A stretch of DNA of 64,000 nucleotides from Candidatus Methanoperedens sp. (GTDB lineage: Archaea > Halobacteriota > Methanosarcinia > Methanosarcinales > Methanoperedenaceae), in contig JAHFDG010000012.1 of the NCBI GenBank assembly GCA_023249105.1, positions 62,001-126,000 of the forward strand, given 5' to 3'. The notes under the pieces are model-generated. The model was not told the DNA's origin and did not search any database. It saw only the letters and a list, made by a program, of their open reading frames with translations. The translations under genes and the position numbers were made by a program. Shown in pieces: positions 1,854-28,205 of the stretch; position 1 is the stretch's first letter, and every line of letters begins with the position of its first letter.

Positions 1854-3053
1854 TCATTCACCCCATATCGCATCTATTATCGTTTTACGGACAGCCATCC
1901 ATGAAGGTATAAACCCGGCAGCAAGCGCAGCTATGATCAGACTTATTGCATTCATCGAAACTCTTTCAGGAAGAATCAGTAATGAAGCCAGTCCGATAGG
2001 AAATTTTAAAGGATGTTCGATGAACCATGGTTTTATGGCAAAAAATATTATTATCAAGCCGATAAATATGCCGCAAATCACAATGAACATTGCCTGGAAG
2101 ATATACGATTGTATGATTATGGATTCTTCTATTCCAACAGCCCTTAAAATCCCTATCTGCCTTCGCTTGCTGATAGTACTGGTATAGACTATTATAAAAA
2201 TAGTAATCACCGCAACAAACAAACCGATCGCGGATATCATCATTGCGATCATGTCAAAGCTGTTTGTTATGTTTTTTACCATGCCGGCATAGACAGTCCA
2301 TGGTTTTATTTCTTCTTTAATACCCATCTCTAAAAACTGTTTTATGTACCGGTCTTCATTTCCATTATCCCTGGTCTTGACCAGCATTTGTGAAGCTTTG
2401 TCTTCCAGGCCGACTACGGATTCCATCTCTTTCTGGCTGATGTATGCCATCGTATTGGTCTGTATGAAATTCGCATCAAATATTCCCTTTACCCTGAAGC
2501 TCTTTTTAACGCCATTATCGAACAGCACATCTACGCTATCACCAACTTTAACTCCAAGTGAACTATATTCAAGATCACCGCCATACCCTCCTGCAATCTC
2601 TTTTCCAAGTAAGATCTCGTTCTTGTCGAGCTTGCTCAAGTATTTGCCAGCGATTAGATAATTATGATTTGTAGTAACTTTCATCTCGTCATCCGGATCA
2701 ATGGAGCGAACTGTCCAGGTTCCATGTTTATCCTTATATGAAAGTGTCGCGCCCGTTACATATTGTGATGAGATGCCCACTACACCCGGAACGCCTTTTA
2801 TCTTTTGTTCCAGGGAATAAACATCGCTTATATATTTTTCATCCTTTTTGGGTTCGATCACTACGTTGCTGTATAGCGAGTTGATTACCTGATTGTTAGT
2901 AGCCTCAGTCACTCCAAGAAAAATAGAACCTATAAATACTAAATTTACAAAGATTAAGGACATTATAAAGATTATTAAAAGCTGTGTGCTTTTACTTCCT
3001 TTCATCATTGACTTGGATGCCAGAAACAACGATAGTTTAACGTTATTGAACAT
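1854..3053 (-). CDS. ABC transporter permease, FtsX/MacB family
   Basis: A 399-residue permease with the four-helix FtsX layout: one N-terminal helix (about residues 24-48), a MacB-type extracytoplasmic domain (about 50-260) and three C-terminal helices. The motif SKRRQIGILRAVG sits between the second and third helices, as in MacB and LolC/E. It is first in a three-gene run with the ATPase and the longer permease downstream, so the exporter may contain two different permeases. The domain between the first helices resembles the stalk that couples ATP hydrolysis to movement of substrates outside the membrane. Substrate unknown. Confidence 0.87.
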   Translation of the reverse strand: MFNNVKLSLFLASKSMMKGSKSTQLLIIFIMSLIFVNLVFIGSIFLGVTEATNNQVINSLYSNVVIEPKKDEKYISDVYSLEQKIKGVPGVVGISSQYVTGATLSYKDKHGTWTVRSIDPDDEMKVTTNHNYLIAGKYLSKLDKNEILLGKEIAGGYGGDLEYSSLGVKVGDSVDVLFDNGVKKSFRVKGIFDANFIQTNTMAYISQKEMESVVGLEDKASQMLVKTRDNGNEDRYIKQFLEMGIKEEIKPWTVYAGMVKNITNSFDMIAMMISAIGLFVAVITIFIIVYTSTISKRRQIGILRAVGIEESIIIQSYIFQAMFIVICGIFIGLIIIFFAIKPWFIEHPLKFPIGLASLLILPERVSMNAISLIIAALAAGFIPSWMAVRKTIIDAIWGE

Positions 3054-3076
3054 ATGCCCTCATCATATAATATTAT

Positions 3077-4228
3077 CTATAGTTTTTTCCTGCGGTGAAG
3101 ATAATATGCCCCCCCCGCTATGATCGGCAGAGTCACAATAACCGGTGCCGCCATGCCATTTTTATTCGGGCTGCGCACATAGAGGTTTAATGGTTCGGTG
3201 ACAGTCCGGACACCGAGATCGTCTTCGAATTCGATATTAGCAGAATAAGGAATGTCGCCTCCATTCTCTGCGTAGAAGGTAAAAACGCCTGGCGCATCAT
3301 CATCGGGTTTGATCTTGCCAAGGAAAGCGGTTCTTGTTCCTTTAAATGGGGCATCGAGGCTGACTTTTGCCGATTTCGCTTCACCAGTTCCTGAATTTTC
3401 AATGCGCATGTTAACAGTGACAAGGTCACCTTCTACAGGATTTTGCGGTTCGATCTTTAGGTCTGAAATCGCAAGTTCTGCCTTTCCAAGGACCCGGATT
3501 CCCGCGAAACTTTTCGAACTTATGTTTTTCCCATTCTCATCCTTGTAATCCAATTGGATGGGGATTGAGTAGGATGAAATTTCAGTCTTGTCTTTAACCG
3601 CAAATGCATAGCTCAATTGAATGGATTCCCCCGGATCAAGTCTCTTTATGACCTTTGTATCAGCATCCACAGATACGAAAGGTAGACTGCTCGTTGCTGC
3701 ACTTACCTGCACTTCCCGCGCCAAACCCGTTCCTTCATTTGAGACTGAAAACGTAATATCAAATTTATCCTTCGGGCTTATGCGCCCAGGATTTACAGAG
3801 ATATTAGAAATCATGAGTTGAGGCGCTCCTCGTACCATCACCTTGAAGGTCTTGTTGGTTTCACGGACCATATTGTTGCCAGACCAGCGTGCTCTGAATT
3901 CAATCTCGTATGCACCGGAAGCTGCGAGAGGATCGACATGAAGCAGATAGGTTTCAGCGACAGCGCCATATTTAATGATCCTGCCCTCATCGATAATGCG
4001 GTCATTTTCATTTTTAAGTTTAATTGGCGAGTCAGGAAGAATCTCAAGCCTTACATTATCTATATCGCTAAATTGATTATCAAGACTGACGGACAGCGTT
4101 AAATCCTTACCCGGTTCAACTGGCTGGGGTGAGAGCTGATCCAGTACGATTTCAAGTTCAGCGTTAGCAGGAGCAATCATGAATATGAGCGCAAACACTG
4201 CAATTAAAGTTAATAATTGCTGTTTCAT
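3077..4228 (-). CDS. secreted CARDB-repeat/S-layer-like protein with C-terminal anchor
   Basis: The 383-residue product starts with a signal peptide (MKQQLLTLIAVFALIFMIAPANA) and is followed by three Ig-like segments of about 110 residues each, every one beginning with a phrase such as LEIVLDQLSPQPVEPG, LMISNISVNPGRISPKD or LAISDLKIEPQNPVEGD. This is the COG1361/CARDB layout common in archaeal cell-surface proteins. It ends in a membrane helix (APVIVTLPIIAGGAYYL) and a basic tail HRRKKL, so it is anchored facing outward. It lies 23 bases upstream of the permease and probably forms one operon with the exporter, perhaps as its extracytoplasmic partner. That partnership is inferred from position only. 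Confidence 0.82.
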   Translation of the reverse strand: MKQQLLTLIAVFALIFMIAPANAELEIVLDQLSPQPVEPGKDLTLSVSLDNQFSDIDNVRLEILPDSPIKLKNENDRIIDEGRIIKYGAVAETYLLHVDPLAASGAYEIEFRARWSGNNMVRETNKTFKVMVRGAPQLMISNISVNPGRISPKDKFDITFSVSNEGTGLAREVQVSAATSSLPFVSVDADTKVIKRLDPGESIQLSYAFAVKDKTEISSYSIPIQLDYKDENGKNISSKSFAGIRVLGKAELAISDLKIEPQNPVEGDLVTVNMRIENSGTGEAKSAKVSLDAPFKGTRTAFLGKIKPDDDAPGVFTFYAENGGDIPYSANIEFEDDLGVRTVTEPLNLYVRSPNKNGMAAPVIVTLPIIAGGAYYLHRRKKL

Positions 4229-23598: not shown

Positions 23599-25434
23599 TT
23601 AAGTTTCAAGATTCAGCCGTAATGTGACGATAGATGGATTTTCCATGATACGATAAGCTGAATCTGTGTCTTTTCCTATTTTCACATCCCCCTTCCTTCC
23701 CACAGTCGCTGTTAAAAGATAATCTTCACCGCTATACACATCCACGGTTTCACCGGATAGTCCCTTGACTGTCAGTATCACGTACTTTTTAGTACGCTCA
23801 ACTGCGGGTATATAACTCGAAATCTCTTGTTTGCCGGTTCTTTTCTTTTTTTCCTTCTCTCTGATATCAAGGTGAATCCCGAGTTTTCTTTCTATCTGGT
23901 CGATATTCTTTCCGCCTTTTCCGATAACACTCGCGATATCTTCCTCGTCAACATAAACTGTGGCGCTTGAATCTGAAACGACATCAACATCCACTTCGCT
24001 GCGAGTGTATCTTTGTATTTCTCTCTGTATCTCACCGACCGCCAGCGCCCAGGTGCCGGGACGTTCCATCTCAATTCCGGTGACAGGCATCACAACAACC
24101 TGTTCGCCGTACGTGTATATCTCATACTCGATATTCCCGGTCTCAAAGTCAGCTACGGTTATCACAGGCCGCGCCAGGTCCTGCTCGACCATCCCGTGAG
24201 GGACTTTCACCGTGAATTTAATATCATAGACCTTGGAAATTTCGCCTTTATCTATGAAAACCACGGTATCCACGACCTGTGGAATTATCCCGAGTTCAAC
24301 GCGCCCTATGAGTCTCTGTATTGCATCTACAGCCCTTGTAGCATGTACCACTCCAATCATCCCCACGCCCGCCATCCTCATGTCCGCGAATACCTGGAAA
24401 TCCCTGGTTTTCCTGACCTCATCATAAACAGTATAATCCGGTCTCACCAGCAGCAGGATATCCGCTGTTTTTTCCATATCGCCTCTTATCGGCGCATACT
24501 GCGTTATTGCATCGGTTACCTGTAAATCGCGGGGCGATTCCATTGTTTTCACGATGAAACCCTGCTCATGCAATACCTCAGCCACACTTGCAGCAAATGT
24601 GGATTTCCCGGCGCCGGGCGGACCTGCGACAAGCACTCCCCGCTGCCTTTCGATAATCCGTGCCTTAAGCTCCTTGCTCAGCCTGTAATCATCAAGCCGG
24701 ACGTTTGCTATGGGTCTTACCGCTGTTATTTCCATACCGTCTGAAAAAGGAGGCTGGGCAACGGCTATACGCATCGAGCCTATCTGGAACACCATTACCC
24801 CTTCGTATTCTATTTCCAGATGCGATTCAGGGTCTCGTTTTGCCCTTTCAATAAGTTCCTTTATAATCGTATGAAGCTCTGATTCTGAAGAGACACTGTC
24901 CCTTATCTTTACAAGTTTCTGTTTCCCCACGCTGCCCTTTTTCGCCATCGGAATAACATTTGCCTTAAGGTGCACGGAAAGAGTATCATCCGTGAAAAAG
25001 TCTTCAATCGTGAGGGATTTTAACTCTTCCATAAGCGGAATAAGGTATTCCACGTTCAACCCTTTGGCCCGGGCGACTTCAGCCTGCACCCTGTCGCTTG
25101 TAATAAAAATCGCGTTATTCTCAACTGCCACAGCGCGTATCATCGAATCTATCTCGCCTGAAGATGCGAGCTTTATCTGTTCGAGGGAGGGTCTCTTTCC
25201 TGTAAACTCAAGACTTATTTCCCCATTCTTTGCCATGTCGCTTAGTTCTTTTAATTCCTCAAGCCCTTTGAACCCTGTTTCTTTTCCACGGTTTGCCTGC
25301 GCTTCCAATTCGGAAACGAGGGCTTCAGGAACAATGACCCTTGCGATCTTAAACTCCCCGGCTTTCAATTTTGTAGTAATGCGCCCATCAATGACAACAC
25401 TTGTATCAGGAACTATAGAAAACTCCTCATTCAT
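23599..25434 (-). CDS. PINc/VapC-type ATPase with KH domain
   Basis: The 611-residue protein combines a PIN nuclease domain (VPDTSVVIDGRITTKL at the start; acidic residues in GEIDSMIRAVAVENNAIFITSDRVQAEVARA), a type II/IV secretion-type ATPase (Walker A GPPGAGKSTFA near residue 269; Asp box LLLVRPDYTVYDEVRKT; GVVHATRAVDAIQRL), and a KH RNA-binding domain (DEEDIASVIGKGGKNIDQIERKLG near residue 505). This fusion is restricted to archaea and a few bacteria and is thought to act in RNA or ribosome quality control. The strict role is unknown. It is divergent from the glnA leader. Confidence 0.9.
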   Translation of the reverse strand: MNEEFSIVPDTSVVIDGRITTKLKAGEFKIARVIVPEALVSELEAQANRGKETGFKGLEELKELSDMAKNGEISLEFTGKRPSLEQIKLASSGEIDSMIRAVAVENNAIFITSDRVQAEVARAKGLNVEYLIPLMEELKSLTIEDFFTDDTLSVHLKANVIPMAKKGSVGKQKLVKIRDSVSSESELHTIIKELIERAKRDPESHLEIEYEGVMVFQIGSMRIAVAQPPFSDGMEITAVRPIANVRLDDYRLSKELKARIIERQRGVLVAGPPGAGKSTFAASVAEVLHEQGFIVKTMESPRDLQVTDAITQYAPIRGDMEKTADILLLVRPDYTVYDEVRKTRDFQVFADMRMAGVGMIGVVHATRAVDAIQRLIGRVELGIIPQVVDTVVFIDKGEISKVYDIKFTVKVPHGMVEQDLARPVITVADFETGNIEYEIYTYGEQVVVMPVTGIEMERPGTWALAVGEIQREIQRYTRSEVDVDVVSDSSATVYVDEEDIASVIGKGGKNIDQIERKLGIHLDIREKEKKKRTGKQEISSYIPAVERTKKYVILTVKGLSGETVDVYSGEDYLLTATVGRKGDVKIGKDTDSAYRIMENPSIVTLRLNLET

Positions 25435-25559
25435 AATAATACAGATAATTCTTTTGATGCTAAATATATTCTGTGGCAGTGAATTATTAATGTAGTATCC
25501 GGATATTTTTTAATCCGTGACATCTGCCCAAATCCATACCATCCGAATTTATAGAAAAC

Positions 25560-25567
25560 TATATAAG
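25560..25567 (+). promoter_or_regulatory. TATA element of the glnA leader transcript
   Basis: TATATAAG preceded by a purine-rich GAAAAC stretch (BRE-like). Transcription would start about 25-30 bases downstream, near 25587-25592, which is where the 5' arm of the long leader stem begins. The leader before glnA would be about 285 bases. Confidence 0.6.
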
Positions 25568-25590
25568 TAGGTAAACGGTAGCTTATAGTC

Positions 25591-25698
25591 GGTCTTGACA
25601 TATCCTTTGAGGCAACCTCTCAATTTGGGAAAATACATTGTGACAGTTGATTCAAAGTTAGCGAATCTACAAAGGGTCTGAAAGGATATGTTGGGATC
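25591..25698 (+). ncRNA. structured leader RNA upstream of glnA (candidate riboswitch or small RNA)
   Basis: Bases 25591-25608 pair with 25681-25698 in an 18-bp stem; the inner 11 pairs (ACATATCCTTT with AAAGGATATGT) are perfect Watson-Crick and the outer ones include several G-U pairs. Inside are a GAGG-CAA-CCTC hairpin (25609-25619) and an eight-pair stem with one mismatch (GTTGATTC 25646-25653 with GAATCTAC 25663-25670). The predicted transcription start coincides with the 5' end of the outer stem. I do not recognise a known riboswitch class. A strong ribosome site and a 37-codon ORF follow within 10 bases, so the element could control that ORF, glnA, or act as an independent small RNA. 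Confidence 0.55.
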
Positions 25699-25719
25699 AC
25701 AACTTCAAAGGAGAAAAAA

Positions 25720-25833
25720 ATGATAGCACCTGAAAAGTTTCCAGATTCCGCAAAAGATAATGGTATAGAAAGGATAATTGCACAGGCAAGATATGCAATT
25801 CGAAAAGCTGTAATAACACAGAATGATTTATAA
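25720..25833 (+). CDS. 37-residue upstream ORF between the leader RNA and glnA
   Basis: An ATG at 25720 with AAAGGAG six bases before it opens 37 codons (begins MIAPEKFPDSAKDNGIER, ends TQNDL) and stops 41 bases before glnA. The peptide is soluble, with an amphipathic middle (IERIIAQARYAIRKAV). Small proteins that bind and modulate glutamine synthetase are known in Methanosarcina (sP26), but no sequence relation can be claimed here. It could be a functional small protein or a leader peptide that senses translation. Confidence 0.6.
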   Translation: MIAPEKFPDSAKDNGIERIIAQARYAIRKAVITQNDL

Positions 25834-25874
25834 CTACAAATAGTAATAAAGTTGAAAAGAATAAGTGATAAAAT

Positions 25875-27206
25875 ATGATTAAAACAAACGAAGATGTATT
25901 AAAATCGATAGAGGAAAACCAGGTACGATTTTTAAGATTGCAATTCGTTGACATTGGGGGAATGGTCAAGAACGTGGGCATCCCTGTATCACAGGCAGAA
26001 AAAGCCCTGAAATCAGGAATAGCATTTGACGGTTCTTCAATCGAGGGCTTTGTCAGGATAGAAGAATCCGACATGATACTAAAACCCGATATAAATACTT
26101 ATCAGATCCTTCCATGGGAAGTTAGCGGCGGTAAGGTAGCAAGGCTGATATGTGATGTTCACAGGCCGGACGGAAAACCCTTCGAAGGCGACCCACGCTA
26201 TGTTTTAAAGAGAGCGATACAGGCAGCCGCCAAAAAAGGTTTCGTCATGAACAACGGTCCTGAACTTGAATTCTTTTTCTTCAAGAGAAAAGATGGAAAG
26301 GCGATCAGTCCCCCGGAACCTCATGACTTTGGAGGTTACTTTGATTTCCCTCCTATCGACCAGGCTGAAGAAACACGACAAAATATTGTCGTAGCGCTTG
26401 AGAAAATGGGTTTCAACATTGAAGCTTCTCATCATGAGGTCTCAATAGGACAGCATGAGATAGATTTCAAATACGCAGATGCGTTAAAAACAGCGGATAA
26501 TGTCATCACATTCAAGTTCGTTACAAAAACTATCGCACAGAAAAACGACCTGCATGCCTCCTTTATGCCAAAGCCCGTTTTCGGCATCAACGGTTCAGGT
26601 ATGCACACGAACATATCCCTTTTCAAAGGGAACAATAACGCTTTCTATGACAAGAATAAGGACATGGAAGTGAGCGACACGCTGCGATATTTCGTAGGCG
26701 GGTTGAAGAAGCACGTAAAATCCTTTACAGCGGTAACAAACCCAATAGTGAACTCATATAAGAGAATAGTACCTGGTTATGAAGCGCCTGTGTATATCGC
26801 ATGGTCGGGAGCCAACCGCTCATCCATGATACGCATCCCCGCAGCCAGGGGCATGAGCACACGTGTGGAACTCAGGAGCCCTGACCCGTCATGCAATCCA
26901 TACCTGTCCTTCGCTGTTATCTTGATGGCAGGGCTTGACGGCGTGGAGAACCAGATTGACCCGGGCGAGCCAACCACGCTTAACCTCTTCCACCTGAACG
27001 AAGAAGAGCGAAAGAGTCATGGAATAGAATCGCTCCCCGGAAGTCTGAAGGAAGCGCTGGATTTTCTGGAAACCGATAGCATAATAAAGGATGCCCTCGG
27101 AGAACATGTATATACTGATTTCATGAGGCTTGGAAGAGCTGAATGGGATGCATACAGGACAAGTGTACATGATTGGGAACTTAACCGCTACCTGAATATC
27201 GTGTAA
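25875..27206 (+). CDS. glnA: glutamine synthetase, type I
   Basis: The 443-residue enzyme carries the GSI motifs: QFVDIGGMVKNVGIP, the DGSSIEGFVRIEESDMIL segment, NGPELEFFFFKR (metal glutamates), GSGMHTNISLF (ATP and glutamate site), and NRSSMIRIPAARGMSTRVELRSPDPSCNPYLSFA. It condenses ammonium and glutamate using ATP. At 443 residues it lacks the inserts of the larger GSI-beta form, so adenylylation control is unlikely; regulation by 2-oxoglutarate, PII-type proteins and NrpR is known in this group. nrpR follows 9 bases downstream. The leader contains a structured RNA and a small ORF. Confidence 0.97.
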   Translation: MIKTNEDVLKSIEENQVRFLRLQFVDIGGMVKNVGIPVSQAEKALKSGIAFDGSSIEGFVRIEESDMILKPDINTYQILPWEVSGGKVARLICDVHRPDGKPFEGDPRYVLKRAIQAAAKKGFVMNNGPELEFFFFKRKDGKAISPPEPHDFGGYFDFPPIDQAEETRQNIVVALEKMGFNIEASHHEVSIGQHEIDFKYADALKTADNVITFKFVTKTIAQKNDLHASFMPKPVFGINGSGMHTNISLFKGNNNAFYDKNKDMEVSDTLRYFVGGLKKHVKSFTAVTNPIVNSYKRIVPGYEAPVYIAWSGANRSSMIRIPAARGMSTRVELRSPDPSCNPYLSFAVILMAGLDGVENQIDPGEPTTLNLFHLNEEERKSHGIESLPGSLKEALDFLETDSIIKDALGEHVYTDFMRLGRAEWDAYRTSVHDWELNRYLNIV

Positions 27207-27215
27207 AAAGGTGAA

Positions 27216-28205
27216 ATGAACACAACTACTATCGACTCAATGGTTCAGAGGAAACTCATAGAGATACTGAGGATACTCTTCGAGAACAAAGAACCGATAG
27301 GAGCGCGGTTGATAGCAGACAGGATGAATGAACGCGGATACCCCATTGGTGAACGGGGTGTCCGTTATCACCTCCGTATCCTGGATGAGCGCGGCCTCAC
27401 GCAGCGGCAGGGTTATGACGGCAGGATAATTACTGAAAGAGGGATAAATGAATTGAATAACGCGCTTGTTGGGGACAGGCTGGGTTTCATCATTACGAGG
27501 ATTGAGAAACTTATCTACGATACCACTTTTGACCTCAAGACCGGGCAGGGGACAGTGATAATCAACACTTCGATAATAGATAAGAAAGATGTTGACAAAA
27601 CTTTAGAGATAATGCGGCATGTGATTTATGAAGGTTATTCTTTCAGCCCGTACATCAAATTAATGGAGGAAGGGGAAGAGGCTATGGATATTGATATCCC
27701 CACTGGTAAAATAGGGATAGCTACCATGTGCAGTATAACGATTGACGGGATTTTACTTAAGAGCGGGATTCCTGTAACACCTAAATATGGCGGCTTATTG
27801 AACGTGAAAAACAGGAAACCTGTGGGGTTTGAGGATATTATTGTTTATAACGGGACTTCGATTGACCCAATGCGTATTTTTATTTCAAAAAAGATGACAG
27901 GGGTTCTTGATGCTGTGGATACAGGTTCTGGCATGCTTCTTGCAAACCTGCGGGAGATTCCGGCATCGGCGGTCACAGAATCTGAAAAAATCCTTGAATC
28001 CGCAACAAGTTTTGGTATTTCAAATGTTGTGGAAATCGGGAAGCCCGGAAAATCGTTACTTAATGCGCCTGTTGAGACGGGGAAAGTGGGTGTGGCGGTT
28101 TATGCGGGCACGAATATAATGGCGGCAGTTGAAGAGAGAGGGATTAATGTCACAACTTATCCTATTTCTACTATTATGGATTTCAAGGAATTGAAGAAGT
28201 TGTAA
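27216..28205 (+). CDS. nrpR: nitrogen regulatory repressor NrpR (single NrpR domain)
   Basis: A 329-residue protein with an N-terminal winged helix (KLIEILRILFENKEPIGARLIADRMNERGYPIGERGVRYHLRILDERGL) and one NrpR (DUF128) ligand domain that binds 2-oxoglutarate (ITRIEKLIYDTTFDLKTGQGTVIINTSIID and GKIGIATMCSITIDGILLKSGIPVTPKYGG). It represses nitrogen-assimilation genes when nitrogen is ample. This is the single-domain form; a second NrpR domain partner may be elsewhere. Co-transcription with glnA suggests a feedback loop. I could not find a clear GGTA/GGAA-N6-TACC/TTCC operator in the glnA leader. Confidence 0.9.
   Translation: MNTTTIDSMVQRKLIEILRILFENKEPIGARLIADRMNERGYPIGERGVRYHLRILDERGLTQRQGYDGRIITERGINELNNALVGDRLGFIITRIEKLIYDTTFDLKTGQGTVIINTSIIDKKDVDKTLEIMRHVIYEGYSFSPYIKLMEEGEEAMDIDIPTGKIGIATMCSITIDGILLKSGIPVTPKYGGLLNVKNRKPVGFEDIIVYNGTSIDPMRIFISKKMTGVLDAVDTGSGMLLANLREIPASAVTESEKILESATSFGISNVVEIGKPGKSLLNAPVETGKVGVAVYAGTNIMAAVEERGINVTTYPISTIMDFKELKKL

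Follow-up and report, generated by a model that had tools for sequence, protein, structure and literature searches.

Upstream of the glutamine synthetase gene glnA of a Candidatus Methanoperedens genome lies a stretch of DNA predicted to give rise to a large folded leader, followed by a ribosome-binding site and a 37-codon open reading frame (ORF). What is it that evolution has kept here: a regulatory RNA, a small protein that modulates glutamine synthetase (GS), or both, as a sequence-only reading of the locus had proposed? The window, that is the whole stretch of 64,000 nucleotides that was analyzed (contig JAHFDG010000012.1, positions 62,001 to 126,000), was compared with its relatives, its genus being represented by 31 Methanoperedens-type genomes.

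Organization of the glnA-nrpR Locus

All features of the locus lie on the forward strand. A distal TATA box (TATATAAG, 25560–25567) is kept together with the following AAACGGTAGCYTATRGTCGGT in 28 of the 31 genomes of the genus, and its position makes a transcript start near 25588–25592, at the foot of the leader stem, plausible. The covariance model of the leader, R1, matches the region 25588–25714 as a whole (113.6 bits, E = 4.5e-25). The closing stem, P1, is composed of 18 consecutive pairs between a 5′ arm (25591–25608) and a 3′ arm (25681–25698), the inner 11 being of the Watson-Crick type, exactly as had been read from the sequence. The smaller hairpins thought to be enclosed by P1 are also present in the predicted fold. 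The conserved core CUCUCAAUUUGGG (25617–25629) forms the small hairpin P2, in which CUC (25619–25621) pairs with GGG (25627–25629), and a GAUUC/GAAUC hairpin (25649–25667), the loop of which differs in length among genomes, has 92% of its cells paired. Behind the leader is the ribosome-binding site AGGAG (25709–25713); none of the 20 aligned leaders departs from AGGAGA here.

The ORF (25720–25833) begins with ATG at 25720 and terminates with a stop codon at 25831–25833. This stop codon is held within a second conserved promoter element of the TATA type, GAATGATTTATAA (25821–25833), which the sequence-only reading overlooked and which is glnA's own. Of 29 copies of glnA-A, 27 are preceded by an element of the GAATGATTTATAA type at a distance of 48–79 nt, including copies in genomes that lack a leader there. 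In the window, the interval 25821–25874 holds this element and a short leader, with the ORF stop inside the TATA box. The genes that follow are glnA-A, encoding GS (25875–27206; Pfam PF00120 and PF03951, with NCBIfam TIGR00653 above its cut-off), and the nitrogen repressor gene nrpR (27216–28205; Pfam PF01995 and PF08461). Stem, ribosome site, ORF, glnA, and nrpR had thus all been placed correctly, and the identities of GS and NrpR are confirmed by Pfam.

The Leader Fold Is Conserved

The minimum free energy of 25588–25720 is −39.0 kcal/mol, compared with −25.1 ± 3.4 kcal/mol for dinucleotide shuffles (z = −4.15, 0/200), and the mean z score over 24 aligned copies of the leader is −3.7. In a sequence-only alignment of 20 leaders (A1), two-sided changes were observed in 11 of the 24 P1 pairs, and 90% of the P1 cells could pair, whereas controls with slid partners reached only 31%–54%. 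The corresponding count in a second alignment of 24 copies (A2) was 16 of 24 pairs, a figure that leans toward the model because these copies were aligned to the covariance model and are biased toward its structure. Cognate P1 arms had a pairing energy of −28.1 kcal/mol and swapped arms −22.0 kcal/mol (0/20000 permutations), although these arm-swap controls, like the P1 pair-count shuffles, ignore the relatedness of the genomes.

The elements inside P1 behave differently. The inner core, of the CUCUCAAGUUGGG type, is nearly invariant in 20 copies. The CUC/GGG hairpin is likewise invariant except for one mispaired copy, and its pairing is unproven because there is no variation in sequence. The GAUUC/GAAUC hairpin shows one-sided changes only and, having no two-sided ones, is weakly supported by itself. 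The compensatory changes that had been suggested as a check among the glnA leaders of relatives were therefore found, in P1, and with them the conserved secondary structure by which a cis-regulatory leader RNA is recognized. The folded leader is genuine and has been kept in evolution.

Distribution of the Leader and the Genes behind It

The head of the leader, AAACGGTAGCYTATRGTCGGT, was found in one real copy in each of the 28 genomes that carry it, never farther than about 330 nt ahead of the start of a GS gene. G017 and G021 each contained one additional head match with three mismatches; the one in G017, when read, proved to be unrelated sequence matched by chance. Among named records, the promoter pattern occurred in Candidatus Methanoperedens, in related or other archaeal metagenome assemblies, and in one Magnetococcales record, where the match was due to chance and no leader was present.

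R1 was trained on 20 leaders, including the window copy but neither the sister genus nor the copy before the ammonium transporter gene (amt). It recovered the leader in 27 of the 31 genomes of the genus. Its independent matches were, in each of the two sister-genus genomes (G077 and G078; E about 1e-6), a diverged leader immediately ahead of glnA-A-nrpR, and, in G043, an extra leader before amt (E = 1.1e-5). In the sister genus, the sequence of the stem has largely changed while its complementarity is retained, and the core GUCUCUCAAGUUGGG is kept; the conserved core is also retained in the amt copy. The genes that carry the leader, glnA-B, glnA-A, and amt, all belong to nitrogen assimilation, and the association is a repeated one. 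On contig 73 of G043 (L169, about 2620–3400, minus strand), the leader is followed by a 17-codon stub, the stop codon of which overlaps the start codon of amt. Read directly, this stub resembles the start of glnA-B.

Searches of the class with R1, and of the class and phylum with R2, yielded no leader beyond the taxonomic family of the window, the phylum search covering a sample of 394 genomes outside this family under strict filters. Marginal R1 and R2 matches at E 0.008–0.05 are at chance level for that many genomes. The leader was not found in the GS upstream regions of the order's other families and of genus g15, nor in the viral contigs and phage records searched. Four weak matches in the genus were discarded, three of them falling within a single repeated coding region that resembles a transposase gene, and the fourth elsewhere in unrelated sequence. 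The known range of the leader is thus far limited to Methanoperedens and a single sister genus.

The view that no known riboswitch class fits was borne out. Rfam 15 gave no match up to E 5 in 24500–28000 and, for five loci that included the leaders of relatives, none up to E 1. Neither the leader nor its relatives matched the model of the glutamine-I riboswitch (glnA RNA, RF01739). The glutamine-II riboswitch (Downstream-peptide RNA, RF01704) gave no model match either, and no conserved short peptide was found behind the leader. Both glutamine riboswitch families are mainly cyanobacterial.

Origin of the 37-Codon ORF

A second GS gene of the genus, glnA-B, is about 44% identical to glnA-A of the window. 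In nine genomes, an intact glnA-B is fed by the ribosome site of the leader, and in four of these glnA-A comes next. Additional, leaderless copies of glnA-B are located directly behind P-II-like (glnK) genes (L080, L081, and L083–L088).

The ORF bears the traces of this gene. The ORFs of G040 and G014 open with 18 codons shared with glnA-B (MATPTPEKLLEFIKEKNV, with one change in G014). The G015 ORF can be aligned to glnA-B over 53 nt free of gaps (0/200 shuffles); the alignment of the window ORF is weaker and covers 50 nt (1/200 shuffles). The window and G015 ORFs align with each other end to end. The tree of glnA-A requires at least seven switches between the state in which the leader is followed by glnA-B and that in which it is followed by a stub. 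The 37-codon ORF is what remains, in decayed form, of the beginning of a deleted glnA-B, joined to glnA's own promoter.

Could the ORF nevertheless act on GS as a functional small protein or leader peptide? Its ribosome site is good, and ORFs of 31–43 codons are present in 14 genomes. Between the window and G015, however, the ORF differs by 5 synonymous and 16 nonsynonymous changes, a synonymous share (5/21) close to the 23% expected if neutral, whereas glnA-A of the same pair differs by 87 synonymous and 16 nonsynonymous changes (87/103). The ORF is reduced to 8 codons in G012 and to 13 in G013, is broken in G019, and is absent from G010, G016, and the sister genus. It also originates from the start of glnA-B and ends in the TATA box of glnA. 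The ORF is not a conserved peptide and drifts neutrally among relatives. The search for the peptide in related genomes consequently went against the small protein that had been envisaged, and a function of this kind is very improbable.

Upkeep of the Leader after Loss of glnA-B

Of 19 genomes in which glnA-B is gone, 7 retain only a truncated or partly deleted leader, and from G009 it has disappeared altogether. By comparison, it is intact in all nine genomes with glnA-B (9/9 intact versus 7/19 damaged, p = 0.03, counting G009 as lost and ignoring relatedness). The leader is thus dispensable once glnA has its own promoter. On contig 32 of G009 (L076), a clean deletion has joined the distal TATA box to glnA's own TATA box, with the leader entirely removed.

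When the window is compared with G015, 2 of 74 sites have changed in the 5′ arm and core, as against 21 of 101 in the ORF (Fisher p = 0.0004). For this pair, the leader RNA therefore looks to be still constrained in the lineage of the window. In the G003/G020/G021 group, the leader and the ORF diverge at similar rates.

Discussion

The original interpretation of the locus stands in one half. The leader RNA is upheld by covariation, by its presence in two genera, by its restriction to GS and amt genes, and by the lack of an Rfam match; the small protein is not. The reading that we favor, with a probability of about 60%, is that of a new structured RNA, riboswitch-like in build, that forms the 5′ leader of nitrogen-assimilation genes and acts in cis. 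The distal TATA box would direct a transcript that begins at the base of P1, and P1 would close a junction made up of a small hairpin, the strongly conserved core, and a variable hairpin, with the ribosome site 10 nt after the stem. Through something that recognizes the conserved core, the leader may tune the translation start or the mRNA lifetime of the first downstream gene according to nitrogen status. In the window, glnA-B, the gene formerly served, has been deleted, and the leader now stands before the 37-codon stub, upstream of a glnA-nrpR pair that also retains its own promoter. A 10-bp pairing of the 5′ arm with the ribosome site is possible in the clade of the window only. Overall, a ribosome-site switch operated by the 5′ arm was not supported, as cognate pairing was no better than swapped pairing (permutation, 812/5000).

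What would recognize the core bears on two of the other explanations. The core may itself bind glutamine, 2-oxoglutarate, ammonium, or another nitrogen signal and so gate the translation of GS and amt. A long variable stem around a near-invariant core, in one copy per genome and before GS and amt genes only, is consistent with such a metabolite riboswitch, but no conserved pairing of the 5′ arm with the ribosome site is seen, the glutamine riboswitch families give no match, and the distribution is narrow; we regard direct binding as possible but doubtful. A new archaeal class of riboswitch, sensing glutamine, 2-oxoglutarate, or ammonium directly and controlling both GS and the ammonium transporter, is only a tentative suggestion. 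It is also rather unlikely that the 5′-terminal stem serves to protect the transcript, or to present the core to a protein, with no direct sensing of a metabolite. As would suit such a leader, P1 starts some 3 nt into the predicted transcript, and in the folds predicted for most copies the ribosome site is largely open; the near-invariant core, however, is unexplained by stability alone, and no candidate RNA-binding protein was identified.

The conserved unit might instead be mainly a DNA element, a promoter with an operator, perhaps that of NrpR, to which the hairpin is secondary. Between the TATA box and P1, a spacer of 21 bp (AAACGGTAGCTTATAGTCGGT, 25573–25593) is nearly invariant in the genus, each genome that carries it having a single real copy, invariably ahead of a GS gene; nrpR is the next gene after glnA. 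The canonical NrpR operator is GGTA-N6-TACC or GGAA-N6-TTCC, and neither form was found at 25500–25900 with up to one mismatch. Moreover, the spacer is not kept in the sister genus, which yet has the RNA core and stem, and P1 covaries as RNA. A primarily DNA-based explanation is thus improbable. The spacer may possibly be a start-site element or an operator of another form, for some other factor, and a divergent NrpR operator at the leader promoter is likewise possible.

The favored leader RNA can be compared with systems already described, although the published literature searched contains no description of the Methanoperedens glnA leader or of a similar archaeal nitrogen-assimilation RNA. 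Analogous to RF01739 and RF01704, it is a structured leader upstream of nitrogen-assimilation genes or a short ORF; glutamine riboswitches were covered by a candidate-RNA screen (PMC2864571), and the structure of the glutamine-II riboswitch has been reported (PMC6698751). The Methanoperedens leader differs in that it is archaeal, the short ORF that follows is a relic, and neither model matches. In Methanosarcina mazei, GS is controlled by NrpR, by sRNA154 (acting on glnA2), by 2-oxoglutarate, and by sP26 (PMC11957540, PMC11456600), and none of these is the Methanoperedens leader element. sRNA154 activates the translation of nrpA and masks the ribosome site of glnA2 (PMC11456600). It resembles the proposed leader in that it controls nitrogen genes post-transcriptionally, and M. 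mazei belongs to the same order, but it is a separate trans-acting small RNA, whereas the leader is fixed in cis. sP26, a protein of 23 residues that binds M. mazei GlnA1 (PMC11957540, PMC11456600), recalls the small protein first proposed here; the 37-codon ORF, in contrast, is a gene fragment without protein-level selection. In M. mazei, glnA1 is under the control of NrpR, a repressor responsive to 2-oxoglutarate (PMC11957540, PMC11456600); in the window, nrpR adjoins glnA. NrpR acts on DNA, however, and no canonical operator was found at the leader promoter. It could act together with the leader.

Given the alignments, the covariance model, and the natural variants (truncated leaders, a full deletion, and the amt copy), the leader RNA is testable at once. 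To our knowledge, cis-regulatory structured RNAs have rarely been documented in archaea. The leader would provide a case in which a regulatory leader was handed between genes once the gene behind it had been deleted.
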